Virus record (IMG/VR): IMGVR_UViG_3300037235_000271
Location: 1-47,249 of that record
DNA: 47,249 bases
DNA from: a virus
Reading direction: 5' to 3' (one strand)
A program made the position numbers and the translations under genes. This document shows, in pieces, positions 7,712 to 43,240 of the stretch. Position 1 is the stretch's first letter. Each line of letters opens with the position of its first letter. Below the pieces are notes generated by a model. That model made no database searches. It had not been told where the DNA came from and saw only the letters and a program-made list of their open reading frames with translations.

Positions 7712-7714
7712 TAG

Positions 7715-7749
7715 ACGGGTATGATATTGTGGCCATCCCCGGGTAACAT
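7715..7749. promoter_or_regulatory. CCCGGG-type operator pair before gp10-like gene
   Basis: The 40-base gap before the gp10-like ATG holds ACGGGTATGAT (7715-7725) and ATCCCCGGGTAACAT (7735-7749), with the two GGGTA cores 24 bases apart. The same core spacing is seen at 19929-19966. The boxes match those at the early promoters. A TATGAT hexamer is present, but no -35 box is seen 16-18 bases upstream. It may be an operator, a weak internal promoter or a roadblock site inside the late operon. Confidence 0.5.
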
Positions 7750-19892: not shown

Positions 19893-21166
19893 TTTGTGGA
19901 GTCCTTAGTTAGGGGGAGTGATTGTGTTCCCCGGGTATAATCGCCCGACGATCCCCGGGTAGATAACTTGTCTTGTTTACTAATCGCCTTCAGCACAAAG
20001 CCTTCACTCGTATTCTCGAGGGATAAGAGTCTAGCTGATACACAGCCCTTGATCATTCCCTCAAAGTCATTCAGCTTTGTAAAGTGTTGATGCACGAATT
20101 GATAGGCAATGTGGTAAGGTACGCCTTTAGGCTGTAATCTGATATAGTCCAAAAACTTATCCGTCTGAATCGACTGTTCATTTCTCCCTATCTTAGAAAA
20201 AACCATGGGCATATCTGCCTCCAAATCTGTAACCATCTTGTGGGCGATCGCGAGATCGTCAGCGTCAATAACCATCTGGTCTCGCTTGGCGGCCGCCAAC
20301 ACCATGGCTAGCTTGTGTATATGAGTCTGTTTCCTCGCAAGATATCCTCCAAACCTCTCATCAGAAAGACCCTCTGGTCGATGGGTGTAGTGATATTGGT
20401 ACCAGGTCGTTCCCCAAGTAATTGCATCTGAAGATAAGGCGTACGGCCCAGAAAGTTCACTTGCAATATGGCATAGGTCTTGGACCAGCGCTTCGCGCTG
20501 AATGAGGATATCTTTTGGAACAGAGAGGGAAGGATAGGCGACATACTTGGCCTTTTTATCAGTATAGATGAATAGACATCGGGAGGTGAATCCGCCTCCG
20601 ATGATATATTCAGGGAAGTTACCCGCGATCCACGACGGAGTCGTGCAGGCAACCATGTTGATCCAGGGGTTTTCCACCACATCGTTTCCAGAGTCCTTTG
20701 TGACCTTTTTAAACGCACCTTGCTTTGAGTCCCAGAGAGTGACCAACAGGTCAATCATATCCCGATCCTCAGGATTGACCAGATTTCCGAACTCAGAGGA
20801 TTCAAGCGTAAGTGCACACTGAACATGCCATTCTCCATTAACCTCAAACTGTTCGCACGAGGCTGCGAAAGCAGAGACGAGTGCCTGCCAAGTAACAACG
20901 TCAGGGCCGAAGTTGACCCCAGGCACTTTTCGTAGAAGGTCCATTGCGATTGCTACTGTTGTAGATTTGGAAACGATGCCAGGAGGGGCTACGAATATGA
21001 TGTAGTGGTTTGCAAACCACTTGAAATAAGCCATGTCAATCCAGACTCGGCGGCGAAGCGCCCCTGCAATCGCTGAGACTCCAGCCCAAAAGTGCATGTG
21101 AGAGGGGGCTTCACTGAAGCCGGAATAGTTGATATAGGCCTGAAGCCAGTCATTATGGTTTCTCAT
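19889..21166 (-). CDS. DUF3987-like replicative helicase / primase-helicase
   Basis: The 425-residue protein resembles phage P-loop helicases of the DUF3987 (YfjI-like) group. It opens with a short N-terminal block (SEAPSHMHFWAGVSAIAGAL) followed by YIIFVAPPGIVSKSTT (residues 56-70, Walker-A-like with SKST), a strand LTLESSEFG as Walker B, then CTTPSWIAG and GGGFTSRCLFIY, which resemble sensor and arginine motifs. No zinc-binding primase domain is present. It follows the polymerase in the early operon and probably unwinds DNA at the fork. Its last codons overlap an operator-like DNA motif and encode SGDYTRG. Confidence 0.65.
   Translation of the reverse strand: MRNHNDWLQAYINYSGFSEAPSHMHFWAGVSAIAGALRRRVWIDMAYFKWFANHYIIFVAPPGIVSKSTTVAIAMDLLRKVPGVNFGPDVVTWQALVSAFAASCEQFEVNGEWHVQCALTLESSEFGNLVNPEDRDMIDLLVTLWDSKQGAFKKVTKDSGNDVVENPWINMVACTTPSWIAGNFPEYIIGGGFTSRCLFIYTDKKAKYVAYPSLSVPKDILIQREALVQDLCHIASELSGPYALSSDAITWGTTWYQYHYTHRPEGLSDERFGGYLARKQTHIHKLAMVLAAAKRDQMVIDADDLAIAHKMVTDLEADMPMVFSKIGRNEQSIQTDKFLDYIRLQPKGVPYHIAYQFVHQHFTKLNDFEGMIKGCVSARLLSLENTSEGFVLKAISKQDKLSTRGSSGDYTRGTQSLPLTKDSTK
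19929..19966 (-). promoter_or_regulatory. CCCGGG-type operator pair before last early gene
   Basis: Read on the minus strand, TTATCTACCCGGGGAT (19966-19951) is followed by GATTATACCCGGGG (19942-19929), with cores 24 bases apart as at 7715-7749. GATTAT or ATTATA could act as a -10 box, but the -35 position (TATCTA) is poor. The pair lies within the helicase 3' end and upstream of the gene ending at 19632. Confidence 0.5.
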
Positions 21167-29793: not shown

Positions 29794-30035
29794 TAGGTGT
29801 TCTCCTTAGAGATTTTCTCCCACTCTTCTTTAGACTTTTCGTTTAAGAAATTGCTGAGGGCAGATTGTAGCCATTTAGCTTTGTGGTTTATATCAATAGC
29901 GTTTTTGTTAGCCTCCTGATACTCTTGTATACTCTCGGCTAAGACAACGATTTGTTTAGCTTGGGCAGGGGTAAATAAATTATCCTCGTAACATAGCCGG
30001 AGGAATTCTATTGCATCTGAAAGAACTATGTTCAC
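29793..30035 (-). CDS. Small helical early protein
   Basis: The 80-residue protein (MNIVLSDAIEFLRLCYEDNL...) is predicted all-helical with charged coiled-coil character (VVLAESIQEYQEANKNAIDI). It starts at a GTG overlapping the previous stop (GTGA). The local sequence is A/T-rich compared with its neighbours. No motif was recognised. Confidence 0.55.
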   Translation of the reverse strand: MNIVLSDAIEFLRLCYEDNLFTPAQAKQIVVLAESIQEYQEANKNAIDINHKAKWLQSALSNFLNEKSKEEWEKISKENT

Positions 30036-30247
30036 AGACCCAGCTCCCCGAGCATCTCATCAGCGCTCTTCACAGGGCCCTTGGCCCGCTTTCCGCCTTT
30101 GGCTCCCTCGGCCGCCTGGGCAGCGTACCGCCCCTCACGAAGATAACGAATGGCCTCCCTAGCCTCATCCAGTGTCATCGTACCGGCAGCAGCACGCTGG
30201 CGGAGGTTGGAGAGCTTGGCTTGGATCTCTGGGGACTGCGTGGACAT
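30032..30247 (-). CDS. Small basic protein with shared C-terminal motif
   Basis: The 71-residue protein has a helical first half (LDEAREAIRYLREGRYAAQA), a Gly/Lys-rich linker (AKGGKRAKGP) and ends in SADEMLGELGL. That ending recurs in three other early proteins (ends at 30950, 33038 and 39055). It is the first gene after promoter 30292-30320. It may be a DNA- or partner-binding adaptor; this is inference. Confidence 0.6.
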   Translation of the reverse strand: MSTQSPEIQAKLSNLRQRAAAGTMTLDEAREAIRYLREGRYAAQAAEGAKGGKRAKGPVKSADEMLGELGL

Positions 30248-30280: not shown

Positions 30281-30320
30281 GTTACCCGGGGATCATACCT
30301 AATTGATCCCCGGGTGTTAA
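30281..30320 (-). promoter_or_regulatory. Early promoter with CCCGGG operator boxes
   Basis: On the minus strand TTAACA (30320-30315), a 17-base spacer and TATGAT (30297-30292) form a sigma70-type promoter. A perfect 11-bp inverted repeat ACCCGGGGATC/GATCCCCGGGT (30284-30294 and 30305-30315) abuts both hexamers. A repressor bound there would block RNA polymerase. It drives the gene starting at 30247 and the downstream replication block. Confidence 0.7.
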
Positions 30321-30339
30321 TAAAGCTATCTACCAGCTC

Positions 30340-30567
30340 TCAATCACTCTCATCATCATCTCTATTGTGATCGTGATCTTGATCGTCGTCGTTTGGCATT
30401 GTGGCCAGGAGTGAATCAACCTGTTGTGTGATCTGGGCGGTGAGGTCTTTGAGATACTTAATCCCGCCGAGAGGAATGGGGGTTGAGAGGTGTAGTTTTT
30501 TGAGCTTCCTCGCGCTCTCTTCCAGAGATTCGATCAGATCAGGGATTATGGTGCCTAGATTGGGCAT
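30340..30567 (-). CDS. Small early protein with acidic tail
   Basis: The 75-residue protein has a helical N-terminus (IPDLIESLEESARKLKKLHL), a middle helix (KYLKDLTAQITQQVDSLLAT) and a very acidic His/Asp-rich tail (DDDQDHDHNRDDDESD). AAAGGAG stands 6 bases before the ATG. Acidic tails of this kind can mimic nucleic acid or bind metal or basic partners. Function is unknown. Confidence 0.6.
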   Translation of the reverse strand: MPNLGTIIPDLIESLEESARKLKKLHLSTPIPLGGIKYLKDLTAQITQQVDSLLATMPNDDDQDHDHNRDDDESD

Positions 30568-30608
30568 TTATTGCTCCTTTGTCTATTGAATGTGGAGGAT
30601 TGTACGTC

Positions 30609-30938
30609 TCAAGTATTTTGAATACTTCGGATGAAGTCCTGAATTATCTTTCGAGCGGGAAGGCTTGCAACTGGATTCAGCTTGTACATGATGTCTGCGG
30701 CTTTGCGCAGGATATCGGTTGTGGCTAAGGAAGTTTCTATCCTAAGCTCGATGTCTTTAGCCTGCCAACCTCGGGCGAAGAAATCCCTCATGAGTTCGAG
30801 GATGAAGGCCTGATAGGCTCCCTTTGGAACTCGACCTTCGAGCGGAGACATGAGGTGAAGGTCGAGCTTGGCTCGAAGGTCTTCGGGGATAGAGGTTTCG
30901 AGACGAGTCGGGCGGATGATAAGAGGGCGGCCGGTCAT
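30609..30938 (-). CDS. Ribbon-helix-helix-like DNA-binding protein
   Basis: The 109-residue protein begins with MTGRPLIIRPTRLETSIPED, a likely beta strand, then LRAKLDLHLMSPLEGRVPKG and AYQAFILELMRDFFARG helices. The strand-helix-helix order and the segment LEGRVPKGAYQ-F match RHH-type proteins common in phages (TISLPEDL...GRxPxGA). It could be a transcription factor for the operator boxes. AAAGG precedes the start. The C-terminal half is helical. Confidence 0.55.
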   Translation of the reverse strand: MTGRPLIIRPTRLETSIPEDLRAKLDLHLMSPLEGRVPKGAYQAFILELMRDFFARGWQAKDIELRIETSLATTDILRKAADIMYKLNPVASLPARKIIQDFIRSIQNT

Positions 30939-30949
30939 TTTAACACCTT

Positions 30950-31447
30950 TTACCAGTCTCTCAGACCAAGTTCCTCCAGCATCCCCTCCACGTCCGGCTT
31001 AGGGGTGAAGCTCAGCCGGCGGTTTCGTTCGACAACAGTTCGGATGAGTTCTATATTAGAGGGAAGGGATTTGATGACCTCCATTTCGAGAAGGGATTCT
31101 CTTGGTGAGGGTTCTTTCCACTGGGGAATGTGTTCAACTACCTGGGGGGTGGCTGTGAGCTCGGCCTCCGGATTGAGATGTGTGAGCCGCCGGGCATGGA
31201 CACGCTTACAGGTTGTTTCCTGAAACATTCCAAGGAACTCTCCGTTGACCATGAGGGCTACGATCGGTCCGGCGGACCACTTGTAATTAGCCTGTTTTGG
31301 GATGAGGGTTTTTTCGACTCTTAGGGGGGATGGAGCTTGAGGAGTGGCCTGTGCTCGCTGAGTCTCTCGCTTTGCGAGCCATGCTTCTCGCTTTGCGTCG
31401 GTGAGGAGCTGATCGAGGTCGAGGAGGGAATGGGGCTGAGTGGTCAT
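30950..31447 (-). CDS. Early protein with shared C-terminal motif
   Basis: The 165-residue protein has an N-terminal basic helix (LDLDQLLTDAKREAWLAKRE), a central beta segment (WSAGPIVALMVNGEFLGMF) with CKRVHARR, and a helical end closing in DVEGMLEELGLRDW. The MLEELGL part matches the ends of three other early proteins. No enzyme motif is present. Confidence 0.55.
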   Translation of the reverse strand: MTTQPHSLLDLDQLLTDAKREAWLAKRETQRAQATPQAPSPLRVEKTLIPKQANYKWSAGPIVALMVNGEFLGMFQETTCKRVHARRLTHLNPEAELTATPQVVEHIPQWKEPSPRESLLEMEVIKSLPSNIELIRTVVERNRRLSFTPKPDVEGMLEELGLRDW

Positions 31448-31481
31448 AGGAGTGAGTCTCCAAGGATGTGATGTTGTTGGG

Positions 31482-31547
31482 TTACTTATCTAGGGTAAAG
31501 ATGCTCTCGCACTTTGGGCACTGGACTGAGCTATTTTTGTGAATCAG
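31482..31547 (-). other. Possible zinc micro-ORF continuing in frame after upstream stop
   Basis: After the TAA of the gene ending at 31557 the same frame encodes PHELIHKNSSVQCPKCESIF, then TLDK and a stop. CPKCESIF looks like half a zinc ribbon. There is no ATG, GTG or TTG; a CTG lies at 31547. It may be a readthrough extension, a relic or chance. The rest of the gap 31448-31556 shows nothing else. Confidence 0.25.
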
Positions 31548-31556
31548 CTCATGAGG

Positions 31557-31829
31557 TTAGCCGGTATATTTGTCGAGCCGATTGATGAGCTTCATCACCT
31601 CTGCGAGTCCAGAGGTCCAGACCCTTGGATCGGTAAACATCTCGCCGTCCTTAGGGAACTGGCCAAAGGCGCCCTTGGCGGCGAAGTCGATTGTGCTGAG
31701 CTGGGAATCTCGCTGGTTGAGAAGGTCTCTCAGGCGGGAGATAGTTCTCCAGGGCCAGAAGTTCTCCAGCCAAGAGTGTGGCTGCCATCTAGGGCTGATG
31801 GAGTCTTCTCGACTGATCGGTGTTATCAT
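31557..31829 (-). CDS. Small early protein, unknown function
   Basis: The 90-residue protein (MITPISREDSISPRWQPHSW...) contains a Trp-rich start (WLENFWPWRTISRLRDLLNQ) and a helical end. The ATG at 31829 has AAGGA about 8 bases upstream; an upstream start at 31871 lacks one. No motif was recognised. Confidence 0.5.
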   Translation of the reverse strand: MITPISREDSISPRWQPHSWLENFWPWRTISRLRDLLNQRDSQLSTIDFAAKGAFGQFPKDGEMFTDPRVWTSGLAEVMKLINRLDKYTG

Positions 31830-31906
31830 TTTGGTGGTCCTTTCTTGGAAGTTTCTGTATAGGGAATTCATGGGAATGGAATGGAGCCTTTGGATAAAGT
31901 CGCCGC

Positions 31907-32116
31907 CTAGATATCCCCCTCAACCGCCAGGCGGGCGGGAGGGCTCCACCATCGGGCGAGCTCGCTCTGCGAAGGCTGGCGGAGCCAGTATGGAGGCTGG
32001 CACTTACAGCCGAGGAGGTGCTGGCACCCTGGCTGGATCCGACGGGGTTTGGAATAGGAATTATATTCTTGAATATCTGTTATCATAGAACCGACTCCGG
32101 CGGTGACCGGCGACAT
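31907..32116 (-). CDS. Small cysteine-containing protein
   Basis: The frame encodes about 69 residues with IQPGCQHLLGCKCQPPYWLR, then QPSQSELARWWSPPARLAVE. The three cysteines and a histidine could bind metal. The ATG at 32116 overlaps the upstream stop (TGATG); an ATG at 32086 has its own GGAG and is also plausible. The segment is high-GC. Function is unknown. Confidence 0.45.
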   Translation of the reverse strand: MSPVTAGVGSMITDIQEYNSYSKPRRIQPGCQHLLGCKCQPPYWLRQPSQSELARWWSPPARLAVEGDI

Positions 32117-32256
32117 CACTCGCTCGGCGGAGGCAAGCCTCGGAATGAATTTCGAGGATGGAAGTGGTTCCAGGGATGTGTTTTCAACAGGGTTATAAGC
32201 AGCATGGTGAAAAATACTGCAAAGCAGCTCAAACCCAGAACCCTATGCCAGGTCAT
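32116..32256 (-). CDS. Single-pass membrane micro-protein (46 aa)
   Basis: The sequence is MTWHRVLGLSCFAVFFTMLL, then ITLLKTHPWNHFHPRNSFRG and a short proline-rich end. One membrane helix (about 5-25) is clear. Its ATG overlaps the KGG gene stop (ATGA), and its own stop overlaps the next gene start. It may act at the host inner membrane early in infection, for example in exclusion or signalling; this is inference. Confidence 0.5.
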   Translation of the reverse strand: MTWHRVLGLSCFAVFFTMLLITLLKTHPWNHFHPRNSFRGLPPPSE

Positions 32257-32597
32257 TTGGATTCTCTTCGAGAGAGGGAGATCTTCGCTCCCTTCTTCCC
32301 ACACTCCCGGGCGAACTCGGGGTTGGTGGAGAAAGTTCTGCTTTCCGGGCGGGAGACAAGACCGCCCGGGCGGCCGGCCGCAAGGGCGGTCTCAGGATTT
32401 TGGTAAAAGCTTCGCTTATGCCCCTGAACCGCCCGTCCGCCCTTTTTCCCTGCTTTTGAAGCCAGCTCGCGGTTGAGAGAAAAGCTTCGCTTTTCATTCG
32501 GGACGGAGCGTCCGCCGAGGGAGGCGATTTCGCGCTGCCTTTCGGGGGGAAGAGTGTTAAAGCCTCGACGGCGGATGGGAGGTGAGGAGTCGGGCAT
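32253..32597 (-). CDS. KGG-motif (stress-induced-like) repeat protein
   Basis: The 114-residue basic protein has repeated units of the type REIASLGGRSVPNEKRSFSL, ELASKAGKKGGRAV and EFARECGKKGAKISL. These match the KGG repeat of bacterial stress-induced proteins (GsiB/YciG-like), often separated by (S/T)FxxNPE-A turns. Start ATG 32597 has AAGGA upstream. It is the first gene after the operator-controlled promoter at 32640-32668. The role in phages is unclear; nucleic-acid binding or protection is possible. Confidence 0.7.
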   Translation of the reverse strand: MPDSSPPIRRRGFNTLPPERQREIASLGGRSVPNEKRSFSLNRELASKAGKKGGRAVQGHKRSFYQNPETALAAGRPGGLVSRPESRTFSTNPEFARECGKKGAKISLSRRESK

Positions 32598-32630
32598 AGG
32601 GAAGTGTCCTTGTGGGGGATGGCGGTGCGC

Positions 32631-32668
32631 CACCCGGGTATCATCGGCCAATCATACCCGTATGTCAA
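32631..32668 (-). promoter_or_regulatory. Early promoter with CCCGGG/ATACCCG operator boxes
   Basis: On the minus strand TTGACA (32668-32663), 17 bases, GATGAT (32645-32640). The spacer starts with TACGGGTATGAT and the -10 is followed by ACCCGGGTG, so operator-like boxes cover the spacer and start site. It lies between a terminator (32702-32735) and the KGG gene, forming an insulated transcription unit. Confidence 0.65.
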
Positions 32669-32701
32669 CAAAGCAATCACGAAGCAATCTATGTTCTAGA
32701 T

Positions 32702-32735
32702 CAAAAGAAAAGGCCAGGGGTTTAGTCCTGGCCTC
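32702..32735 (-). terminator. Intrinsic terminator (minus strand)
   Basis: Read on the minus strand, AGGCCAGG pairs with CCTGGCCT around an 8-base loop (32734-32711) and is followed by TTTCTTTTG, a good U-tract. It ends the transcript from the 33810-33838 promoter just before the next promoter. Confidence 0.75.
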
Positions 32736-32812
32736 TTCCCGCCGGGATGACGTCGCTGGGAGACTCACTTCACAACGATGTCGGTCCGACTCGCCCCTTG
32801 GGGCTATTGGTC

Positions 32813-32920
32813 CTACCAGCAGCTGAGATCACAATACTCTGGAGGAGTGTATGAAGGGATCGGAGCCGCCGGCGGCTGGGTGGTGAATAACATGGCTAAG
32901 AGCAAAATTGCGTGGGTCAT
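32813..32920 (-). CDS. Secreted micro-peptide candidate (35 aa)
   Basis: AAAGGA lies 7 bases before an ATG that encodes MTHAILLLAMLFTTQPPAAP, then IPSYTPPEYCDLSCW. The first 18 residues look like a signal peptide or membrane anchor, and the rest is a Pro-rich peptide with two cysteines. It sits between the gene ending at 33038 and the terminator. It could be exported to the periplasm. Real expression is not proven. Confidence 0.45.
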   Translation of the reverse strand: MTHAILLLAMLFTTQPPAAPIPSYTPPEYCDLSCW

Positions 32921-32975
32921 TTAGGGTCCTTTGGTTGGTAAAATATTGGCTACAGTACTACTACTAAGGCAGGGA

Positions 32976-33023
32976 GGGAGCCAGGAGTACTTCTGAAATA
33001 CTCCCCTGTCAGCTCTGGCTCCC
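32976..33023. other. Two-part hairpin just downstream of gene 33038-33748
   Basis: GGGAGCCAG (32976-32984) pairs with CTGGCTCCC (33015-33023), and inside it GGAGTA (32984-32989) pairs with TACTCC (32999-33004). It starts 15 bases after the stop codon at 33038. No U-tract follows. It may protect the mRNA 3' end or attenuate transcription into the micro-peptide gene. Confidence 0.45.
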
Positions 33024-33037
33024 GCCCTGTCGAGGGC

Positions 33038-33748
33038 TCAGCCCAAGCCCACCGATGCCAGAAGCGCGTCGGTATTGACGTGGGAGTTCTTCGCCGCCTT
33101 CTCCGCCTCGATCCGGTCGATCGTCGGCTTGATCTTTGAACTTGCCCGTAGGGCGAGCTTTTCCTTTGGTGATTTTGCCTTGAGAAAGGCCTTCATCTCC
33201 TCAACGGACTTGCCGGTGAGCTCCACTAGGGCCTTGAGCAGGACACTCGTTCCTGACATCCCTCCACCCTCACGAACCATCGACCACTCGCCTTTATTCA
33301 GCTGGTCGATGAGCTCTTCAACCTCCAGAACCATATCATCAACATCCTCAATCCCCGCGGTCTCGTCGCCGAGCTTTTGCTCAGCTCCATGGAGGGCAAA
33401 CTGGGTAAAGAGGCTCTCGGGGAGGATGAAATTCAGCACCCGCCCGTTGCGGAAGTTCAGCCGGACGAAGGCTGGAATGGTCTCGCCGAGGTCGTTCTGG
33501 CGAGGGAGGAAGGACTCTTTGAGCATCCGCCGGGCGCCGACGAACTCGACATTCCGACCGTCTTCCATTGTGATGACCTCAACTTCGCGGGTCTTCTTAG
33601 CCTTCGCCGGTAGGCCGACCGGCGGCTCAAAAGACCCGTTGGATGGCTCGATCTGCGCTTGTGGATGGGGCTGTCCGGTGTAGCCGGCGGCGTGGATTTG
33701 AGCGCTGTGAGCGCTGTGAGCGCTGTGAGCGCTGTGAAACTCGTTCAT
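33038..33748 (-). CDS. Conserved-looking early protein with SAH repeats and shared C-terminal motif
   Basis: The 236-residue protein starts with MNEFHSAHSAHSAHSAQIH, a tripeptide repeat from a 9-bp tandem repeat, then a Pro-rich linker. The body (VEVITMEDGRNVEFVGARRM, FVRLNFRNGRVLNFILPESL, HGAEQKLGDETAG, LNKGEWSMVREGGGMSGTSV) resembles a family of unknown phage proteins of early modules. It ends VNTDALLASVGLG, related to the MLxELGL endings elsewhere. AGGAGA precedes the start. Its own promoter lies at 33810-33838 and a terminator follows at 32702-32735. Function is unknown. Confidence 0.65.
   Translation of the reverse strand: MNEFHSAHSAHSAHSAQIHAAGYTGQPHPQAQIEPSNGSFEPPVGLPAKAKKTREVEVITMEDGRNVEFVGARRMLKESFLPRQNDLGETIPAFVRLNFRNGRVLNFILPESLFTQFALHGAEQKLGDETAGIEDVDDMVLEVEELIDQLNKGEWSMVREGGGMSGTSVLLKALVELTGKSVEEMKAFLKAKSPKEKLALRASSKIKPTIDRIEAEKAAKNSHVNTDALLASVGLG
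33701..33736 (-). repeat. Four tandem copies of a 9-bp unit in coding sequence
   Basis: AGCGCTGTG (plus-strand reading) occurs four times in a row and encodes the SAH repeats near the N-terminus of the 236-residue protein. The unit length is a multiple of three, so copy number changes would keep the frame. Confidence 0.85.
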
Positions 33749-33809
33749 TTTCTGGTCTCCTAAGTACTTAGTTTATTCAGCCTATCGACACATGTCGATT
33801 GGGGGGTGG

Positions 33810-33838
33810 AGTCTAGTCCACCCCCATGGGGTTGTCAA
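33810..33838 (-). promoter_or_regulatory. Early promoter with GGGGTGGA hairpin
   Basis: On the minus strand TTGACA (33838-33833), 17 bases, TAGACT (33815-33810), about 60 bases upstream of the ATG at 33748. The -10 lies in an inverted repeat GGGGTGGA/TCCACCCC, and a palindrome CGACACATGTCG lies downstream. It lacks CCCGGG boxes and may answer to a different regulator. Confidence 0.6.
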
Positions 33839-33846
33839 TCAAGGAT

Positions 33847-34056
33847 TTAAAAGGCTTTCTGATCTGTAATATGGGCTATTTCGCCTCGGACGATTCTATC
33901 CCCCTTGGGCGCATCTATTCCAATTCGAATGTCTTTGTCATTGACACTTGAAACGACAGTGATGATTATCTCATGCTCCGTCCCAGGGTTGATGATGATC
34001 TGGCTCTTGAGAGAGCTGTGTCGGCTGCTTAGCGGCCGGCGGGTTAGGATAAGCAT
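33847..34056 (-). CDS. CsrA/RsmA-family translational regulator
   Basis: The 69-residue protein starts MLILTRRP and contains IIITVVSSVNDKDIRIGIDA, then PKGDRIVRGEI, matching the CsrA signature (MLILTRR...ITVTVL...VRIGxxAPKxxxVxREEI). CsrA dimers bind GGA motifs in mRNA leaders and block or aid translation. Here the loop after LTRR is several residues longer than in bacterial CsrA, and VHREEI is replaced by IVRGEI, so the key arginine is kept. It could reprogramme host carbon metabolism or control phage mRNAs. Confidence 0.8.
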   Translation of the reverse strand: MLILTRRPLSSRHSSLKSQIIINPGTEHEIIITVVSSVNDKDIRIGIDAPKGDRIVRGEIAHITDQKAF

Positions 34057-34058
34057 TT

Positions 34059-34130
34059 TTAATCCCCGTCGAAGACGAAGAATTGAATATTACCAGCTCC
34101 ACGGTCATCCCAAATTATAATAGTCTTCAT
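34059..34130 (-). CDS. Micro-protein (23 aa) before csrA-like gene
   Basis: The ORF encodes MKTIIIWDDRGAGNIQFFVF, then DGD. GGAG stands 7 bases before the ATG and the stop lies 2 bases before the CsrA-like ATG. It looks like a strand-turn-strand peptide. It may be a leader peptide coupling translation to the regulator. Confidence 0.4.
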   Translation of the reverse strand: MKTIIIWDDRGAGNIQFFVFDGD

Positions 34131-34156
34131 AACTGATCTCCATTGCGAATGTTGGC

Positions 34157-34303
34157 TTAAGCCTCTTCGAATATCCGCTCTATCGCGCGCTTTAAACCCA
34201 ACCGGGCACTGAATCTCCGGCCGTGGATATAAAGCTCATTTGACCCATCTCTGGAATAAAAGCGCACTTTGTTAATTTTCCATATGGGGGTAGAGGTTTC
34301 CAT
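34157..34303 (-). CDS. Small basic protein (48 aa)
   Basis: The ORF encodes METSTPIWKINKVRFYSRDG, then SNELYIHGRRFSARLGLKRA and a final helix IERIFEEA. It follows the UvrD-like helicase gene region in reverse order (its start is 8 bases from the helicase stop). Basic strands and a short helix suggest nucleic-acid binding. No Shine-Dalgarno is evident. Confidence 0.45.
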   Translation of the reverse strand: METSTPIWKINKVRFYSRDGSNELYIHGRRFSARLGLKRAIERIFEEA

Positions 34304-34310
34304 ATGAATG

Positions 34311-35795
34311 TTATTGGGTTGCGCCGAAGGTAAGGCGGTCGGCCGCCCGGGTGATCCCGACGTACATGAGGTTCTCCTCCTGCTCTACCTGCTCTAGACT
34401 CCTTGCGAAAATCGCTGGGATGAGATCCGGGCGGAGGATATAGACCCGAGGGTGCTCCAGCCCCTTGGCCTTATGAATCGTGCTGAAAATCGTCCCGTTT
34501 TGGGATTCGCCAAGGCGCTTGAGCATCGAGAGCATGTCTTCAACCTTGGTGAATTCACTCGCTACCTCCCGGGCGGTTTCATAGCGATCTTGGAGATAAT
34601 GAAGCTTAGCCATGAATCCCTCCTCCCTCGCCTCCGTGCTCTTTCGAGCGAACCAGCTATCGAGCTTTGGAATGAGCTCCGAAGTCATCTGTAACTTAAA
34701 CCCCCTTATCCAGTTGGTGAAATTATCGAGGAAGTTCGTCCGAACCTGACAGGGACGCTTCGCCCGGATATAGCTCAGAATGACCTTAAACATTGGTGCG
34801 TTGTTTCGACAGAGGACCATTTGGTCGCCGAAATCTGAGGGGGCGAAGTTATCAGGAGGGGTAATCACCACCTCGCCCTTGGGCGCTCCCTCTCTGGCTG
34901 TGATCTCGGGGCAGTATTTCTGTGCCCACTCCACTACGCTTTTCGGACAGCGGTAGGTGATGCTGAGCGGGAGCTCGGTCATCGCAAAGCGAGAGCCGAG
35001 AATGCCCATGGAGTTGCTCAGCGCGCCTCTAAATCCATAGATCGCCTGTCGCCGGTCCCCGACCGCGATCAGGCGGGCGCCCTTATTCACTAACTTGGTG
35101 ATGAAAAGGTGCTGGATTTCGTTCAGATCTTGAGCCTCGTCGATGATGAGATTGCTGAAATGGGGGAACTCCCACTTGTGGTATAGCGGTCCATAGATCT
35201 GATCATCGAAATCAAAGATGTCGGTCCGCCCGACGGCTTGGATAAACACCCGGCGAGCGAGATCAGAGATCTCTTCCTCCCTCCCCATCGGAAGGTCGAG
35301 GGAGAACTGGTCTGAGAGTTCGAGGAACTGCTCCACCTTGAGTGGATTATGATCCAACCCTAGTCCATGGGCCTTGCCCAACCCGACCAGGCGGGAGATG
35401 AGTCCCGAGAATTCTTTAAAGACCTGTGACCCCTCCCCAATCAGGGATTTGAGAATGAGATAGCTCTTCTTCGGCTCGAGTTTCGCCTCTCTGAGATATT
35501 TAAACCAAAGTCTATGTCCGAGGGAATTGATCGTCCTGACGATCTGTTTACTCAGCCCGGTCTTGACCCTCAGGGCCTCGGCAATATCAGCATTAAAGGC
35601 GAGGAAGAGGTAGGAACCTGAGAGATGATTGAGTGATTCGATAATCGTTGTGGTCTTTCCACTCCCTGCGACCGCCTGGATTAGAAGATTATCATTTCTC
35701 TCCCGAGCGAAGCTAAAGATCTCCTCCTGAAGTCTTGACCACTTTGTCATTGTCGTCCTGGTCATGGAGGCTATTGGCTCATCTATCAGGTTCAT
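34311..35795 (-). CDS. UvrD/PcrA-like superfamily 1 helicase
   Basis: The 494-residue protein carries Walker A LIQAVAGSGKTTTI (38-51), motif Ia LFLAFNADIAEAL, Walker B LIIDEAQDLNEIQ, motif III AVGDRRQAIYGFRGA, motif IV SITYRCPKSVVEWA, motif V FSTIHKAKGLEHPRVY and motif VI NLMYVGITRAADRL. All SF1A helicase motifs are present in a shortened framework compared with UvrD (about 720). It probably works in repair or recombination-dependent replication, or removes proteins from DNA. Its ATG overlaps the previous stop (ATGA). Confidence 0.9.
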   Translation of the reverse strand: MNLIDEPIASMTRTTMTKWSRLQEEIFSFARERNDNLLIQAVAGSGKTTTIIESLNHLSGSYLFLAFNADIAEALRVKTGLSKQIVRTINSLGHRLWFKYLREAKLEPKKSYLILKSLIGEGSQVFKEFSGLISRLVGLGKAHGLGLDHNPLKVEQFLELSDQFSLDLPMGREEEISDLARRVFIQAVGRTDIFDFDDQIYGPLYHKWEFPHFSNLIIDEAQDLNEIQHLFITKLVNKGARLIAVGDRRQAIYGFRGALSNSMGILGSRFAMTELPLSITYRCPKSVVEWAQKYCPEITAREGAPKGEVVITPPDNFAPSDFGDQMVLCRNNAPMFKVILSYIRAKRPCQVRTNFLDNFTNWIRGFKLQMTSELIPKLDSWFARKSTEAREEGFMAKLHYLQDRYETAREVASEFTKVEDMLSMLKRLGESQNGTIFSTIHKAKGLEHPRVYILRPDLIPAIFARSLEQVEQEENLMYVGITRAADRLTFGATQ

Positions 35796-36091
35796 TTATA
35801 TATTTCCTTCAGCTTCTCAAGAAAGAGTTCGAGATTTCGCTTGGCTTCTCTAAAGCCAGCTATGTAAAACTCCCTATCGTCCTTGTCTTGACACTCAGCC
35901 CATGAAAGAGCCTTGGCAAAGGTTTGGATTAGTTCCCCCAGCTTGCTCCAATCCGGAGCGCTTTTATTGGCCCAATTCATAGCTCGATCCGCGAGCCAGA
36001 GTCCAGCTCTTTGAACTTCTTCATCACTATATCCCTGAGGATTTTTGGTGATGAAGACGGAGAGATTGAGGTCCAGTTCTATATATCTCAC
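35792..36091 (-). CDS. Small helical protein upstream of helicase
   Basis: The 99-residue protein begins at a GTG overlapping the upstream stop (GTGA). It has a short strand (YIELDLNLSVFI) and then helices (RAGLWLADRAMNWANKS, KALSWAECQDKDDREFYIAG, ELFLEKLKEIYK). The frame is open further upstream but that part is out of register with two better genes. Function is unknown; it is coupled to the helicase. Confidence 0.55.
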   Translation of the reverse strand: MRYIELDLNLSVFITKNPQGYSDEEVQRAGLWLADRAMNWANKSAPDWSKLGELIQTFAKALSWAECQDKDDREFYIAGFREAKRNLELFLEKLKEIYK

Positions 36092-36204
36092 AGCGTCTTG
36101 TCCTCTTTGAGATATCTGATCAGCCCATTGAACTCGTTGATTGCGTGGCCCTTGACCTTTAGGATCCCGGCGGCCCGCCACTCCGCCTTCCCCATTCTCA
36201 CCAT
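36088..36204 (-). CDS. Micro-protein (38 aa)
   Basis: From the ATG at 36204 the ORF encodes MVRMGKAEWRAAGILKVKGH, then AINEFNGLIRYLKEDKTL. It is basic and helical. It overlaps the upstream stop by 7 bases and the next GTG by 4. The open frame extends upstream to 36318 within another gene. Function is unknown. Confidence 0.45.
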   Translation of the reverse strand: MVRMGKAEWRAAGILKVKGHAINEFNGLIRYLKEDKTL

Positions 36205-36428
36205 ATGCTCTGCGACGATGAGACAGGTGTTGCTGGAGAGACAAAAGGTCTGATCAGGAATGAGCGAGGGAGGGGAATGACATTTGAATCCTTCCCTTCC
36301 CTCGCTCGCCCGGCGCACTCTGGACTGAGCACATAAGATCCATTACATACCTCGCGGCGTGTTGCACCACAATTCCTACAGATCTGCTCTCCATTCACCA
36401 AGTGTTCTGAAGTAAAAACATGTCTCAT
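36198..36428 (-). CDS. Small zinc-ribbon-like protein
   Basis: The 76-residue protein opens with MRHVFTSEHLVNGEQICRNC, then GATRREVCNGSYVLSPECAG. CRNCG with the later C...C pair gives a four-cysteine zinc site, as in small phage zinc ribbons. GGGGAG lies 6 bases before the ATG. A strong hairpin (36464-36492) lies just upstream. The C-terminal 30 residues are low-complexity. Confidence 0.55.
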   Translation of the reverse strand: MRHVFTSEHLVNGEQICRNCGATRREVCNGSYVLSPECAGRAREGKDSNVIPLPRSFLIRPFVSPATPVSSSQSIW

Positions 36429-36463
36429 CTGTTTCTCCCCTTTCTCACTAAGCCCATTTATCA

Positions 36464-36492
36464 GACCGAGGGCAGAGCCACTGCCCTCGGTC
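36464..36492. other. 12-bp perfect stem hairpin in early transcript
   Basis: GACCGAGGGCAG (36464-36475) and CTGCCCTCGGTC (36481-36492) flank a 5-base loop. It lies between the stop of the gene ending at 36502 and the ribosome binding site of the zinc-ribbon gene. No U-tract is present on either strand, so it may be an RNase III site or a stabiliser of the mRNA 5' end. Confidence 0.5.
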
Positions 36493-36501
36493 TCAGATCT
36501 C

Positions 36502-36756
36502 TCAGTCATTACAAACCGGATCCCTCACACATCGGCCAAGGACCAGACATCTCTCCCGTGATGAGCATGAAGGCTGTCCTATTGCCCTCTCTCCTCTCAC
36601 CCACTTTTCCACATTCACAACCATATATATCAAATCCTCTAAATCCTTCTCACTCAGATAGTCCTTATTCAACTCCACCTTGGTCTCCTTATCCTCCCCG
36701 ATCTCAATAACTAGTAAAAGGGCCTTTATCATTGCCAGATGATTAATTTTCGCCAT
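36502..36756 (-). CDS. Small early protein, unknown function
   Basis: The 84-residue protein (MAKINHLAMIKALLLVIEIG...) has a hydrophobic helix, an acidic-charged middle (EDKETKVELNKDYLSEKDLE) and a cysteine-containing tail (CSSRERCLVLGRCVRDPVC). Four cysteines in the tail could hold zinc or form disulphides. No ribosome binding site is clear. No family was recognised. Confidence 0.5.
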   Translation of the reverse strand: MAKINHLAMIKALLLVIEIGEDKETKVELNKDYLSEKDLEDLIYMVVNVEKWVRGERAIGQPSCSSRERCLVLGRCVRDPVCND

Positions 36757-36761
36757 GGGAG

Positions 36762-36965
36762 TTATTTCTTCGCTATTTCCGATCCATTCTCACTCGTATC
36801 CTCCACACACTTCCATTTCTCATCCCACTGGGTGATGAGATTCGCTCCCTGAGCCTCGCACTGCGCTTCGCGCTCAAAATGTTTCATCACCAACATCCCC
36901 TGCGCCGCGTCCTGCAGCCCTGATCCCATTCCACTATTCAGCCAAATGATTAAAAGCCATTTCAT
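36762..36965 (-). CDS. Small protein with hydrophobic N-terminus
   Basis: The 67-residue protein starts MKWLLIIWLNSGMGSGLQDA, which could be a weak signal peptide, and continues with a charged helical part containing two cysteines (AQCEAQGANLITQWDEKWKC). Its ATG overlaps the stop of an upstream zinc micro-ORF (ATGA). Secretion or membrane association is possible; function is unknown. Confidence 0.5.
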   Translation of the reverse strand: MKWLLIIWLNSGMGSGLQDAAQGMLVMKHFEREAQCEAQGANLITQWDEKWKCVEDTSENGSEIAKK

Positions 36966-37081
36966 AACTTATCCTTTGCTCGCTTTGCGAGCCAACTGAG
37001 CTTTTCTCTCCTCGCACACTCAACACAGTTAGAGGTTGAAACATACCTAACCCTATGTCCGAAGGAACATTTCCTTCCAAC
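36962..37081 (-). pseudogene. Zinc-finger micro-ORF lacking a canonical start codon
   Basis: The frame encodes VGRKCSFGHRVRYVSTSNCV, then ECARREKLSWLAKRAKDKL. The pattern GRxCxxGHxxxRYVSxxNCVECxR is shared by many small phage and bacterial zinc-binding proteins. GAGGAGGGG stands at the right distance before a GTT codon at 37081, where ATG or GTG is expected, and no start codon lies between the upstream in-frame stop and this point. The stop overlaps the next ATG. It may be a start-codon mutant, a sequencing error or a gene using a non-standard start. Confidence 0.45.
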
Positions 37082-37157
37082 GTACTTAACCCCTCCTCTC
37101 GCCTAGGCTAGGCTCTTTGCCCTGATTGCTTCACTTCTAGAGAATATTATAGCTTTC

Positions 37158-37544
37158 TCAACCCTTCGTTGGATAGGGAATCGGGCACTTTGGCCCGAAG
37201 TCTGGGGGAGATTCTCCCCCTTCGGGCGGCTCAATGGTGGTCGGGGATTGAGGCCTTGCTATCCCCTTCGAGATTCTCACCAACTCCTCTAGCAGATCCC
37301 TATCCCTCCCCTGCTCTCTAAGCCCTTCGGTCCTCAGCTCACTTTCCCCCAAAGTCTTTCCTCTTAAAACCTCCTGCCACGCTTCCCTTCTGACAATCTT
37401 TCCAATCTGCGCCGCACCAACCTCGAACTCGCGGCTCAGCCTCCCCTGGCTCCACCCCTCTTCATGATAGAGGTGGAAGATTTCCAGAACCTGCTCCCCA
37501 GAGAGCTTCGCCGCCCGGCGGTTGTGGGCTTTAAACTTCGTCAC
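37158..37544 (-). CDS. Helix-turn-helix DNA-binding protein
   Basis: The 128-residue protein has LSGEQVLEIFHLYHEEGWSQ, then GRLSREFEVGAAQIGKIVRR, a clear HTH (WSQGRLSREFEVGAAQIGKIV). It resembles phage HTH proteins with an AKLTxEQVxEIRxLY start and R-E-W end. The C-terminal part is Pro/Gly-rich. It starts at a GTG overlapping the previous gene by 14 bases. It is one candidate for the repressor or activator acting on the CCCGGG boxes; evidence for that is only co-occurrence. Confidence 0.65.
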   Translation of the reverse strand: MTKFKAHNRRAAKLSGEQVLEIFHLYHEEGWSQGRLSREFEVGAAQIGKIVRREAWQEVLRGKTLGESELRTEGLREQGRDRDLLEELVRISKGIARPQSPTTIEPPEGGESPPDFGPKCPIPYPTKG

Positions 37545-37758
37545 GAGCTAAAACCCTGCCACACGCGTGCGCGGCTTCCACCGTTCCCATTTCCCTCTCC
37601 CAGATCCTCGCTATCACATATTGCCCAGTCCTATGTGGTGCGTTGATCCAAGCTAATGCGGTCTCTTCATCTGTAAACGGCCCTATCACCTCCCCATCCA
37701 TTCTTGTTTCGATGATATAAGTCTTGGTTGATATAGCTGCTGTCTTATTACTTTTCAT
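37531..37758 (-). CDS. Small early protein, unknown function
   Basis: The 75-residue protein (MKSNKTAAISTKTYIIETRM...) has two strands, a GEVIGPFTDEETALAWINA helix and a final VIARIWEREMGTVEAAHACG segment. It resembles small proteins with a FTDEETAxAW motif but no function is known. It overlaps the genes on both sides by 11-14 bases. Confidence 0.55.
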   Translation of the reverse strand: MKSNKTAAISTKTYIIETRMDGEVIGPFTDEETALAWINAPHRTGQYVIARIWEREMGTVEAAHACGRVLARDEV

Positions 37759-38626
37759 CGAGACCGCCTTCGCTCTCCGTCAGTACTAACCACTCACAAC
37801 CATAGGCTTTCATATCAACCAGGATTTGCACGACATCTTCCGCGAAGGCGGTCAACTGTTGATCTGTGGCGCAGGCAGCTGAGGTGGCAACATTGGCAAC
37901 ATTGGCTGCATAGGCTGCATTGGCAACATTAGCTGCATCGGCGGCTGCATAGGCAACATCGGCAACATTGGCTGCATAGGCGGCTGCATAGGCTGCATCG
38001 GCTGCATAGGCTGCTGCATCGGCGGCTGAGGCAGCGTAGTCAGCTGAGGCATCGGCTACATAGGCAGCGTAGTCAGCTGAGGCGTCGGCTGCATCGGCTG
38101 CATAGGCAGCTGAGGTATAGGCGGCTGAGGTATAGGCGGCTGAGACATAGGCAGCTGAGGCATAGGCGGCAGTGCAAGCTTCCTCAGCATTTTCCCGAGT
38201 TGGCTCTAGCTCGCATGCCAGAGCGGCTTTGAGCATGGCGTCCTTTTTCTGTTCATTTCTACAAATGCTGGCCGCCGCCCGGAGAGCGATTGGAACCTGG
38301 GTCTGGATTGCAAGCCGCGCAATGCGCTGCACGAACTCCTTCTCATCTAACGTGCCAGCCGAGCCGAGCTGGGCAAGAGCTAGACGACGCAGCCCCTTGG
38401 ATCGCGCCATATTGGATGACCAGCGCGCATCGTTCAAACGAATCTTGAGACGGCGCAGAGATGGGGCGACGCAGGTTGGTTGGTCTCCATGTGGCAGGCC
38501 CATGGCGTAACACACCGCGGCCTCGACACACATCTTGCCGGGGATCGGCTCGCCTATGCTGGAGACCAGGCCAGCGTCAACCACCTGAAGAACCTTGCGT
38601 GCGACAGTGATATCAATTTCCATCAT
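37748..38626 (-). CDS. Alanine-rich repeat protein (immunity-protein-like family)
   Basis: The 292-residue protein has a globular N-terminus (ARKVLQVVDAGLVSSIGEPI, then GKMCVEAAVCYAMGLPHGDQ and RLKIRLNDARWSSNMARSKG), a long repeat region (about 150-255) made of five-residue units of the type AAY(A/T/V)S and AADA(A/N), and a helical end (LTAFAEDVVQILVDMKAYGC, then EWLVL). Similar bacterial and phage proteins with Ala-rich repeats are sometimes labelled putative immunity proteins. The repeats could form a helical or solenoid rod. AGAGG precedes the start. The biological role is unknown. Confidence 0.65.
   Translation of the reverse strand: MMEIDITVARKVLQVVDAGLVSSIGEPIPGKMCVEAAVCYAMGLPHGDQPTCVAPSLRRLKIRLNDARWSSNMARSKGLRRLALAQLGSAGTLDEKEFVQRIARLAIQTQVPIALRAAASICRNEQKKDAMLKAALACELEPTRENAEEACTAAYASAAYVSAAYTSAAYTSAAYAADAADASADYAAYVADASADYAASAADAAAYAADAAYAAAYAANVADVAYAAADAANVANAAYAANVANVATSAACATDQQLTAFAEDVVQILVDMKAYGCEWLVLTESEGGLDEK
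37867..38180 (-). repeat. Degenerate 15-bp tandem repeats coding Ala-rich pentamers
   Basis: About twenty imperfect copies of units such as GCATAGGCGGCTGAG and GCATCGGCAACATTG (plus-strand reading) follow each other within the Ala-rich gene. They encode five-residue steps and keep the reading frame, so slippage or recombination would change protein length without breaking it. Confidence 0.7.
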
Positions 38627-38791
38627 TGTTTCCTCTGTGAAAATAAGATCGGATCGGCCAAACGTACGTCATTCTCTCCTCGGGCGGCGGTCCATCGATC
38701 ATATCGCCAAACCCACCCCCGGTCAATCAAGTATTGGCAAAGCAATATGGTCATCTTCATCCCACATTACGAACTACGAGACTCTCGCATT

Positions 38792-38914
38792 CCGTTCCCG
38801 GGAACATTCCCTTGCGTCCCTGAGAGTTTGTGTGTGTTGTAGTGTAGTAGATAAAAAAAATATTATGACTACACTACACACTCCCTCAGGGGACGGATCT
38901 CTCAGTGGGAACGG
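38792..38914. other. Nested inverted repeat with A/T-rich centre, candidate origin or control site
   Basis: Three arm pairs share nearly one centre (about 38855): CCGTTCCC/GGGAACGG (38792-38799, 38907-38914), GTCCCTGAG/CTCAGGGGAC (38816-38824, 38885-38894) and TGTAGTGTAGT/ACTACACTACA (38838-38848, 38868-38878). The 19-base loop has eight consecutive A and is the most A/T-rich patch noticed. It lies in the 428-base gene-free stretch 38627-39054, which otherwise holds one CCCGGG-type promoter candidate and short GC palindromes. Confidence 0.6.
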
Positions 38915-38931
38915 ACCTAAGGGGCCAAGGC

Positions 38932-38960
38932 ATTATACCCGGGGGACATCCCCGGGAACA
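38932..38960 (-). promoter_or_regulatory. Early promoter candidate with CCCGGG boxes
   Basis: On the minus strand a perfect TATAAT (38937-38932) follows CCCGGG, with a second CCCGGG box overlapping the -35 region. The -35 hexamer at 17 bases (TGTTCC) is poor. The gene starting at 38626 lies downstream. An activated or tightly repressed promoter is possible. Confidence 0.5.
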
Positions 38961-39054
38961 TTTTGGGGGCCCCCCGTAGATCGGAATGGGGGATGATGAA
39001 GATGACATGCCTAGTCTCCCTCATTCCTTTGACCTTTCTCAGCGCCTGGCGATC

Positions 39055-39606
39055 TCAGTCCCGCAGCCCCTTTTCTTCCTCCCCTGAGAGTCCCAGCTCA
39101 CTGAGCATTTCCTCAGGATCGATCTTGCTCGCCCCCTCAGCCCGAATTTCATCAGCAAAAGGCTTCAATTTCGCTGAGTTCAGCAAGACCTTAACATCTC
39201 CCCCAGTTTTCCCTTTCACCCAGCCTTCAACATCATCCATCTTCGCCCCTGCGCGTTTCAACACCCTAATCAGCAGACCTTTCTCCCCGCCTATCCCATT
39301 CCCTTCACTTCTCCCCGGACTCCATTCCTCAGCTCCGGAGTTATACCATTCACAGAGCTCTGCCATGGCGTCAAACTTGTCTTTCGAACTCGCAGGCTTA
39401 CCTGTTTCCCTACTCCGAGAGAGTGCGGCGGCATCGCGAATTCGCTGAATCATTCCATGAGTCAGCCCTGCTCTCGCATTCGCCTCGCTTAAGAGCTTGA
39501 GATCCAGCGTTAATTCCCCAATCTCCTCAACCTTGAAAATGATACAATCGCTAAAAATCTTGTGTGAAATCACGCCGTTGGCTCGCTTTTTGCCTTCGCT
39601 AGTCAT
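39055..39606 (-). CDS. Early protein with shared C-terminal motif
   Basis: The 183-residue protein (MTSEGKKRANGVISHKIFSD...) has a strand-rich start (IFKVEEIGELTLDLKLLSE), an Ala-rich helix (MIQRIRDAAALSRSRETGKP) and a KFDAMAELCEWYNSGAEEWS segment. It ends IDPEEMLSELGLSGEEEKGLRD-like, containing the MLSELGL motif found in three other early proteins. AAAGGA is 8 bases before the ATG at 39606. Two tandem operator-controlled promoters stand upstream, so it is probably among the first proteins made. Function is unknown. Confidence 0.65.
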   Translation of the reverse strand: MTSEGKKRANGVISHKIFSDCIIFKVEEIGELTLDLKLLSEANARAGLTHGMIQRIRDAAALSRSRETGKPASSKDKFDAMAELCEWYNSGAEEWSPGRSEGNGIGGEKGLLIRVLKRAGAKMDDVEGWVKGKTGGDVKVLLNSAKLKPFADEIRAEGASKIDPEEMLSELGLSGEEEKGLRD

Positions 39607-39667
39607 TTTAGTTTCCTTTGATTTGAACCGTGTTCTGTTGTTACCCGAGGATGAGGCCCTGTGGGTG

Positions 39668-39696
39668 ATCATACCCGGGCATTATCTCTCAGTCAA
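39668..39696 (-). promoter_or_regulatory. Early promoter (proximal of tandem pair) with CCCGGG box
   Basis: On the minus strand TTGACT (39696-39691), 17 bases, TATGAT (39673-39668). CCCGGG directly precedes the -10 hexamer, and a second box (CATCCTCGGGTAAC) lies just downstream, 39654-39641. The site is about 60 bases upstream of the ATG at 39606 and exactly 71 bases from the distal promoter. Confidence 0.7.
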
Positions 39697-39738
39697 CTCT
39701 CGTTACTTAACCTCGTGAACCTTCCTCATTACCCGGGG

Positions 39739-39767
39739 ATTATACCATGATCGTTCCCGGGTATCAA
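39739..39767 (-). promoter_or_regulatory. Early promoter (distal of tandem pair) with CCCGGG boxes
   Basis: On the minus strand TTGATA (39767-39762), 17 bases, TATAAT (39744-39739). CCCGGG directly follows the -35 hexamer and CCCCGGGTAATG directly follows the -10 hexamer. This is the best consensus match in the window and probably the main early promoter. Confidence 0.75.
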
Positions 39768-42785: not shown

Positions 42786-43240
42786 GCTTCGAACAGATCG
42801 CCTCGTGGATAAAGGGCTTGTCCCGCTCCCGCCCGGAGTTCAATGATCAGCCTGCCTGTCCCTTTGCCTCTAAGTCCATGTGGGACCTCATTAACCGCAA
42901 CAGTGCTTCGGCGGTTATACTAACCTTACGCCAGGTCTCACTCCCCCTCGGTCGGGTGTTGATCATTAAGCTTCTCAGCGAAATCCCAGAGATCGACCAG
43001 CTGCTCATCAGCGAGAACCATTTGCTCGCTTCTCGCGACCATATTGCAATGTATTCCGATCCCTCCCAGCCTATCATCGTCAACGGCTACCAAACTACTC
43101 AGGCCTTCGCCCGCCTTATCATTCTCCAGCGACTTAGCGAACTCGAGGCCGTTAGGCCTTGGCTGAGTAAAAAGGGCTATTATTCCAAATGGAGCCCCTC
43201 TGACCTTGCCAGAATCGGAGCCCAGTTCTATGTCAAGTAA
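42782..43240 (+). CDS. Partner protein of hydroxylase, unknown function
   Basis: The 152-residue protein has FNDQPACPFASKSMW near the start, LPLGRVLIIKLLSEIPEIDQ in the middle and ends SPSDLARIGAQFYVK. A CPFA motif followed by a mixed alpha/beta fold is found in several small uncharacterised families. It is coupled to the hydroxylase (ATGA) and overlaps the terminase small subunit start. Function is not known. Confidence 0.55.
   Translation: MSFEQIASWIKGLSRSRPEFNDQPACPFASKSMWDLINRNSASAVILTLRQVSLPLGRVLIIKLLSEIPEIDQLLISENHLLASRDHIAMYSDPSQPIIVNGYQTTQAFARLIILQRLSELEAVRPWLSKKGYYSKWSPSDLARIGAQFYVK

Follow-up and report, generated by a model that had tools for sequence, protein, structure and literature searches.

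The phage sequence IMGVR_UViG_3300037235_000271 from IMG/VR, analysed here over its whole length of 47,249 nucleotides (the window), carries pairs of CCCGGG boxes that are held at a fixed distance and recur at matching positions in diverged relatives. The operator-like unit is a 30-base-pair (bp) dyad, CCCGGGKATWAT-N6-ATWATMCCCGGG. We favour, with somewhat more confidence than doubt, the interpretation that a phage-coded regulator binds a 30-bp operator in which each box forms a half-site. The most likely regulator is the small ribbon-helix-helix (RHH)-like protein encoded at 30609-30938, which would act in the way proposed below. Our overall verdict is a regulon of dispersed operators, together with a putative natural code of recognition.

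An initial annotation of the window had described five minus-strand promoter stretches with CCCGGG boxes, and all of them are present as given, with their hexamers and 17-base spacers checked, as are the perfect 11-bp arms at 30284-30315. Whether the boxes exceed chance depends on what is counted. Bare CCCGGG occurs 22 times in the window vs 17.3 +/- 3.7 in dinucleotide shuffles and is not enriched, so the single box is no more frequent than composition leads one to expect, whereas CCCGGG pairs at exactly 24 bp occur three times (19930/19954, 30285/30309 and 39732/39756) vs 0.005 on average over 200 shuffles. At 32633/32657 a further pair keeps the 24-bp register but has one degenerate box, so that the window holds four dyads, three exact and one degenerate; the dyad at 19930 was absent from the earlier list. 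Of the other boxes described there, the pair 38938/38951 is 13 bp apart and the box at 39674 is single. The relatives G005, G007, G035 and G038 have seven, four, three and four CCCGGG pairs at 24 bp, respectively, and the mean at other spacings is at most 0.07 in these phages and the window. The 56 halves of 28 dyads, which were chosen on the core and, where the core was mismatched, additionally on the inner arms, give the profile CCCGGG-K-A-T-W-A-T, beyond which preference is unclear. The general frame is BOX6-xATTAx-N6-xTAATx-BOX6.

Relatives with the same dyads were found by pattern. The first IMG/VR search, with CCCGGGNATN12ATNCCCGGG, returned 12 stretches, seven of which lie in five contigs: one from the same phage (G002/L012, 100% identical to the window over 13,206 bases) and four from the distant relatives G003, G005, G007 and G010; the other five had no tblastx match to the window. 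A second pattern returned 20 stretches, 13 of them in related contigs, adding G035, G036 and G038, and the remaining seven were without a match to the window. The pattern scans alone thus gave seven distant-relative contigs. Fourteen relatives picked by protein similarity alone had no such dyad with up to two mismatches in their whole records, and eight further relatives gave one single weak match when up to three mismatches were allowed; many relative records are fragments. The nuclease of this phage group has a relative in 3 of 50,697 annotated phage records (E 1e-5), and the group is known almost only from metagenomes. Among the papers listed in a literature search that left most subscription journals uncovered, none described these sites or phages. 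The contig L061/G037, which is CCCGGG-rich at 40% GC, was considered as a second system and rejected: its checked sites lie in predicted open reading frames (ORFs), and the search for a relative of the window found none.

Across the window and its relatives the dyads recur at about six matching positions, A to F (Table 1), at about four to eight per genome, eight being the largest list for a relative. Three dyads fall outside these classes (G005 3450, G035 1848 and G035 47172); G005 7986, which looks like a coding coincidence, and three-mismatch matches in G038 and G022 were omitted. The genes are named after Pfam (DUF3987, UvrD helicase, methyltransferase and, just under the cut-off, a PD-(D/E)XK nuclease) and PHROGs (terminase large subunit, Sak4-like protein and, weakly, portal and major head protein), while the name small terminase (the 43206-43799 family) and that of the capsid gene in G005 and G007 rest on position. 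Upstream of the putative small terminase in L058 (G036), four CCCGGG boxes form an array at 4298-4377 with spacings of 24, 24 and 26 bp. Scans of the window for tRNAs and for Rfam families at gathering scores found none.

The initial annotation had read the boxes as marking a family of early promoters under a single phage-coded regulator. Dispersed operator-like sites there are; they recur at matching positions in diverged relatives and are probably read by a single phage-coded regulator. Early promoters are not their only location, however, as dyads are also found downstream of the putative capsid gene, ahead of the putative small terminase and where the early block ends. Nor are all early promoter-like sites marked: the sigma70-like sites 38726-38698 and 33838-33810 are box-free, which limits the boxes to some of the promoters. 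We counted a -35-like word, TT[GA]A[CT] within 24 nucleotides (background 0.05-0.10 per 26 nucleotides), at 30 sites, a set which contains the single box 39674 and takes the G036 array as one site. The word was present in the direction of the gene at 11 of the 30 and in the opposite direction at four. By class it occurs at all five C sites, three of five B sites and both window A sites.

The reader of these boxes is probably the RHH-like protein. Proteins with this RHH-like pattern were found in 81 of 98 sequences, and in their alignment a glutamate at one strand position (E14 in the window) is present in all five covered CCCGGG phages and absent from nine others. By pattern, this position appears to take the place of Asn11 of Arc, a residue described as a base contact (PMC12645479). 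A first nuclease-based scan, independent of box and regulator, yielded 80 loci. Among 63 distinct phages with an RHH-like protein, an exact CCCGGG dyad is present in five of the six with Glu vs none of the 57 without (Fisher 8.5e-7, not corrected for kinship), and no other column of the protein separates the CCCGGG-dyad phages from the rest of the 63. The sixth Glu phage, L132, has CCCGGC/CCCGGT 24 bp apart inside TTGACA-N18-TACAAT, plus a second CCGGG pair; even with two mismatches allowed, a promoter dyad is missing from all 57 non-Glu loci. On a nuclease tree made by a quick method, Glu requires four changes. AlphaFold2 monomers of two of the proteins show an extended start and helices at 19-29 and 41-56 (41-87 in the window protein) with a predicted local distance difference test score (pLDDT) of 90 and 84; the loop between the helices is longer in the models than in Arc. 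The helix-turn-helix (HTH) protein 37158-37544, also named in the initial annotation, was rejected, with no tblastn match (E 1e-4) in the CCCGGG phages G005, G007, G035 and G038, and the 39055 family was rejected as a regulator exclusive to CCCGGG phages, being present in G016, G017 and G022 as well.

The same frame appears to hold other hexamers in other relatives: CGAACG, GRCGYC, CACCCG, CGCACG and GGGGYG. When either orientation was allowed and one hexamer had to be paired at least three times per phage, 10 entries were found at 24 bp vs 0-3 at each other spacing from 10 to 40; beyond the CCCGGG phages they include L161 (CGAACG, four pairs) and L137 (GAACAC, three pairs). With the inner AT anchors required and eight CCCGGG contigs excluded, 41 exact-box pairs fall at 24 bp, 28 at 26 bp and 2-12 at each of the remaining spacings from 18 to 33; the pairs at 26 bp are perhaps partly 24-bp dyads in a shifted register. 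A stricter arm score over the loci with the RHH-like protein, minus five CCCGGG phages, gave 40 dyads at 24 bp vs 4-15 at each other distance between 20 and 28 bp, and both the 41 and the 40 include the six remaining Glu phages. In G027, GRCGYC boxes occupy five of seven listed places (4101, 13717, 19378, 26408 and 34415), including matches to D, to E (by neighbouring gene) and to F. The G005 relative L030, a contig on which no RHH-like protein was found, has GGGCGG-type core dyads at sites C and D (463 and 8833), and L028, on whose contig the regulator gene was not found either, has the box ACCGGC, which belongs with the CCG-centred boxes under the relaxed reading described below.

The box varies together with the strand residue. 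In a Mantel analysis of 26 phages (19 of the 27 dyad phages plus G038, L132, L217, L161, L156, L095 and L205 from elsewhere), with a box list that was compiled by hand and not blind, box similarity correlates with the strand residue at r 0.63. For the three strand residues at the places of Arc 9, 11 and 13 taken together r is 0.50, for the remainder of the RHH-like protein 0.33 and for the nuclease 0.24. When the rest of the protein and the nuclease are controlled, the strand residue retains a partial r of 0.58 (P 1e-4); the nuclease, with the residue and the rest controlled, retains 0.00 (P 0.46). With the nuclease alone controlled, the strand residue is the best column at 0.60, and the next reaches 0.41. 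Among the 15 non-Glu phages the residue gives r 0.36 (P 0.004) and the three residues 0.37. In the putative code, Glu accompanies CCG-centred boxes (11 phages), Gly accompanies ACCG (two phages), Asn mostly goes with GCG, CACCCG or CGCACG types, His goes with GAAC, most strongly in L161, L156 and L137, and Thr goes with GRCGYC in G027 only. This covariation favours the RHH-like protein among the candidates of the initial annotation. We consider it an evenly balanced question whether this family of uncultured phages has one frame whose hexamer key has been rewritten repeatedly by one-residue substitutions in a new, unlisted family of RHH-like regulators.

Several results weigh against the favoured interpretation. 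A second nuclease-based scan (80 of 426 relatives) provided 79 new loci, 53 distinct unseen phages and, among these, 32 with the RHH-like protein as a held-out set. The prespecified test, that Glu is present if and only if there are exact CCCGG pairs at 24 bp, failed (two of five Glu phages, 5 of 27 others, p 0.30), and exact CCCGG was rejected as a predictor of Glu phages. The five-mer keys were not reproduced on the held-out loci either: His gave one pair (control 0.67), Asn one (0.83) and Thr none (two loci). A box-agnostic search of the held-out Glu loci found CCCGTA and TCCGGG in L165, CCCGGA in L168, CCCGGT in L169 and CCCGAA in L171, and L217 has CCGGGG/TCCGGG. Only a relaxed box reading, made post hoc after the data had been seen, gives CCCG-type boxes in five of five held-out Glu loci; under it, CCG stands at box positions 2-4 in all 11 Glu phages (in one half in L217) and in none of the 15 non-Glu phages of the Mantel set. 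L205 and L236 have CC..GG boxes without the strand glutamate. Eight non-Glu phages were dropped from the Mantel set (L107, L130, L102, L111, L215, L202, L170 and L194), of which L102, L215 and L170 have an arm score of 10/12, equal to that of the retained L169 and L171. Among the non-Glu phages, the rest of the protein does nearly as well as the residue (r 0.32). An independent-pairs test counted three for, none against and one undecided (p 0.25), too few to decide. MW202489 encodes an RHH-like protein and has no dyad, and a dyad at 24 bp is present in only 27 of the 95 distinct phages with the protein (the 63 above and the 32 held-out ones). At non-CCCGGG loci, promoter-associated inverted pairs do not favour this distance (10 at 24 bp, 16 at 22, 15 at 14 and 11 at 19), and repeated exact inverted pairs number three at 24 bp and four at 29 bp. 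The fold is unsupported by Pfam, PHROG or Foldseek, where the two models matched no RHH chain, and no PDB sequence came below E 0.3; since there is no family, PDB or Foldseek match, RHH is a reading by pattern. Finally, the -35-like word occurs at none of the six A-type sites beyond the window and at 1 of 12 D, E and F sites, and all four words in the opposite direction fall at D, E or F.

The operators could be real but read by another phage protein, for example the paralogues 39055-39606 and 33038-33748 or an unrecognised one, with the RHH correlation arising by hitch-hiking or chance. The 39055 family, common across the group, adjoins site A in the window, G005, G007 and G038. In addition, the strict held-out test failed, and the box correlates with the remainder of the RHH-like protein too. 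However, one strand residue stands above all other columns of the protein, the nuclease control retains no association once that residue and the remaining protein are controlled, and the HTH protein drops out as described above. We regard such a reader as unlikely. The other possibility on the side of a protein is that the regulator activates instead of repressing at E and F, where the late promoters would lack a -35 hexamer. The scarcity of -35-like words at D, E and F fits this, as does the position of F ahead of late genes, but at B and C the core promoter lies under the dyad, where an activator would be badly placed, and activation seems to us decidedly improbable.

It could also be proposed that the dyads act in the transcript as RNA hairpins, namely as terminators or as processing or stabilising stems, which would suit D and E. 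In G005 two ORFs converge on site D, site E comes just after the capsid-like gene of G035 and the gene at apparently the same position in G005 and G007, three of the five G007 dyads are perfect 12-bp stems, and at G005 18866 the outer flanks are complementary and one strand includes a T-rich stretch. Nevertheless, dyad partners are no more similar to each other than shuffled halves are in any of five phages (P 0.51-0.96, or 0.37-0.96 with wobble allowed), mispairing between the arms is frequent in the window and G005, and the B and C dyads overlap the -35/-10 region, upstream of the would-be transcript. Because partner halves do not covary, the dyad is best read as an operator for a protein and not as a hairpin in RNA, and we find the hairpin explanation very doubtful. 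A host regulator or host promoter feature exploited by the phage can hardly be the answer, for while the promoters resemble ordinary sigma70 promoters, the box differs between related phages under a constant frame, and the strict dyad was found at seven places in genome contigs, all from Clostridia or Eubacteriales and none similar to the window, six of which adjoin a stretch that we take to be a T-box leader.

The geometry of the dyads and their recurrence at matching sites are firm; for the phage-coded RHH-like regulator we infer the fold, DNA binding, dimer stoichiometry and repression. Each six-base box would be read by one dimer through its paired N-terminal strands, and two dimers 24 bp apart would bind jointly with the assistance of the AT-rich inner arms. 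Bound at B, C and, in the window, A, they would lie over the -35/-10 region of early promoters of the sigma70 type and would shut off or tune early transcription, including that of the regulator's own unit, which lies between B and C. At D, E and F the bound protein might serve as a road-block or take part in late control. The frame would be retained throughout the family while the six-base key shifts with the strand residue.

The initial annotation had compared the boxes with mycobacteriophage stoperators. According to reports on cluster A (PMC9283540, PMC6550527), those phages have more than 20 asymmetric 13-bp sites, aligned with transcription and bound by a monomeric two-domain repressor. 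The placement is alike, with one regulator and with sites at promoters and in short intergenic gaps genome-wide, and so is the way in which the site motif varies together with the repressor among relatives. The present sites differ in that they are symmetric 30-bp dyads, about four to eight per genome, with a putative RHH reader, and no PF00589 integrase was found in any of nine records, some of them fragments, other integration types not having been sought. Arc, the small RHH repressor of phage P22, is described as contacting bases with the strand residues Gln9, Asn11 and Arg13 (PMC12645479), whereas the present protein has no sequence match to a solved RHH protein and its boxes are 24 bp apart. 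Closer in arrangement is NikR of H. pylori, an RHH tetramer reported to bind two half-sites about two helix turns apart, with 20 nucleotides between centres (PMC5385501), although NikR is nickel-controlled and bacterial, with 20 bp instead of 24 bp; the phage proteins are 58-125 amino acids long. The E. coli RelB operator likewise has RHH dimers on hexads in 12-bp palindromic half-sites, but RelB is reported to tolerate no half-site spacing and serves toxin-antitoxin autoregulation (PMC2812701). The regulon thus resembles stoperators in its placement and RHH repressors in its likely reading mode, and is a shown member of neither.

Table 1. Dyads, promoters and candidate reader in the window, with the site classes found across relatives
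Feature	Position	Strand	Context	Site class and where present
Dyad, both boxes CCCGGG	39732..39761	-	Inside promoter 39767-39739 (TTGATA-N17-TATAAT); start of downstream gene placed at 39606	A, beside 39055-family gene: window, G005, G007, G038
Promoter TTGACT-N17-TATGAT	39668..39696	-	Second tandem promoter of the 39767-39739 unit; single CCCGGG at 39674 (neighbouring CCCGAG at 39644, 30 bp away)	
TATAAT, no usable -35	38932..38960	-	Two CCCGGG 13 bp apart (38938, 38951); upstream of ORF 37748-38626	
Degenerate dyad CCCGGG/CCCGTA	32633..32662	-	Inner anchors 8/8; overlaps promoter 32668-32640 (TTGACA-N17-GATGAT); after gene 33038-33748	B, after 33038-family gene: window, G005, G007, G035, G038
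Proposed box reader, RHH-like protein, 109 amino acids	30609..30938	-	Glu14 tracks box	
Dyad, both boxes CCCGGG	30285..30314	-	Overlaps promoter 30320-30292 (TTAACA-N17-TATGAT); upstream of gene 30032-30247	C, before 30032 gene: window, G003, G005, G007, G038
Dyad, both boxes CCCGGG	19930..19959	.	End of leftward early block; in poorly conserved 3' end of DUF3987 ORF, codons about 402-412 of 425	D, after DUF3987 gene, end of early block: window, G005, G035, G038
Weak candidate dyad GACGGG/CCCGGG	7714..7743	.	Two core mismatches; in 40-bp gap between late ORFs 6956-7711 and 7752-9275	
Site class				E, after capsid-like gene: G035; G005 and G007 by position
Site class				F, before putative small terminase: G005, G007, G010, G035, G036

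Other features of the early region were observed along the way. A longer upstream stretch, about YCTTGRTTGACA, is common to many of the group's promoter-like sites, among them 38731 and 33843 (minus strand), G027 10531, 16831 and 19366 and other loci; the YCTTGRTTGACA stretch may reflect a feature of host promoters or form a second regulatory element. The early proteins 30032-30247, 30950-31447, 33038-33748 and 39055-39606, plus homologues in G005 and G007, share a C-terminal motif of about (I/V)D..(L/M)L.ELGL, which could be a docking tail. Two of these, 39055-39606 and 33038-33748, are paralogous, have relatives in several phages of the group and found no match in Pfam and PHROG searches. 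The early protein 37748-38626 has a long degenerate Ala/Tyr/Asp repeat with a nine-base period, and the protein 26633-26962 ends in DDDLPF, which resembles the tip of single-strand binding proteins.

If the proposed link between strand residue and box is true, these phages would hold a recognition code for DNA reading by beta strands that has evolved in nature, in the form of about two dozen natural protein-operator pairs of one common geometry, distinguished by the key residue and the hexamer. Two questions could then be tested directly, namely how specificity is encoded when DNA is read by beta strands and how a phage regulator can alter its specificity in step with its many scattered sites, and the system would provide a regulatory handle on this metagenomic phage group.

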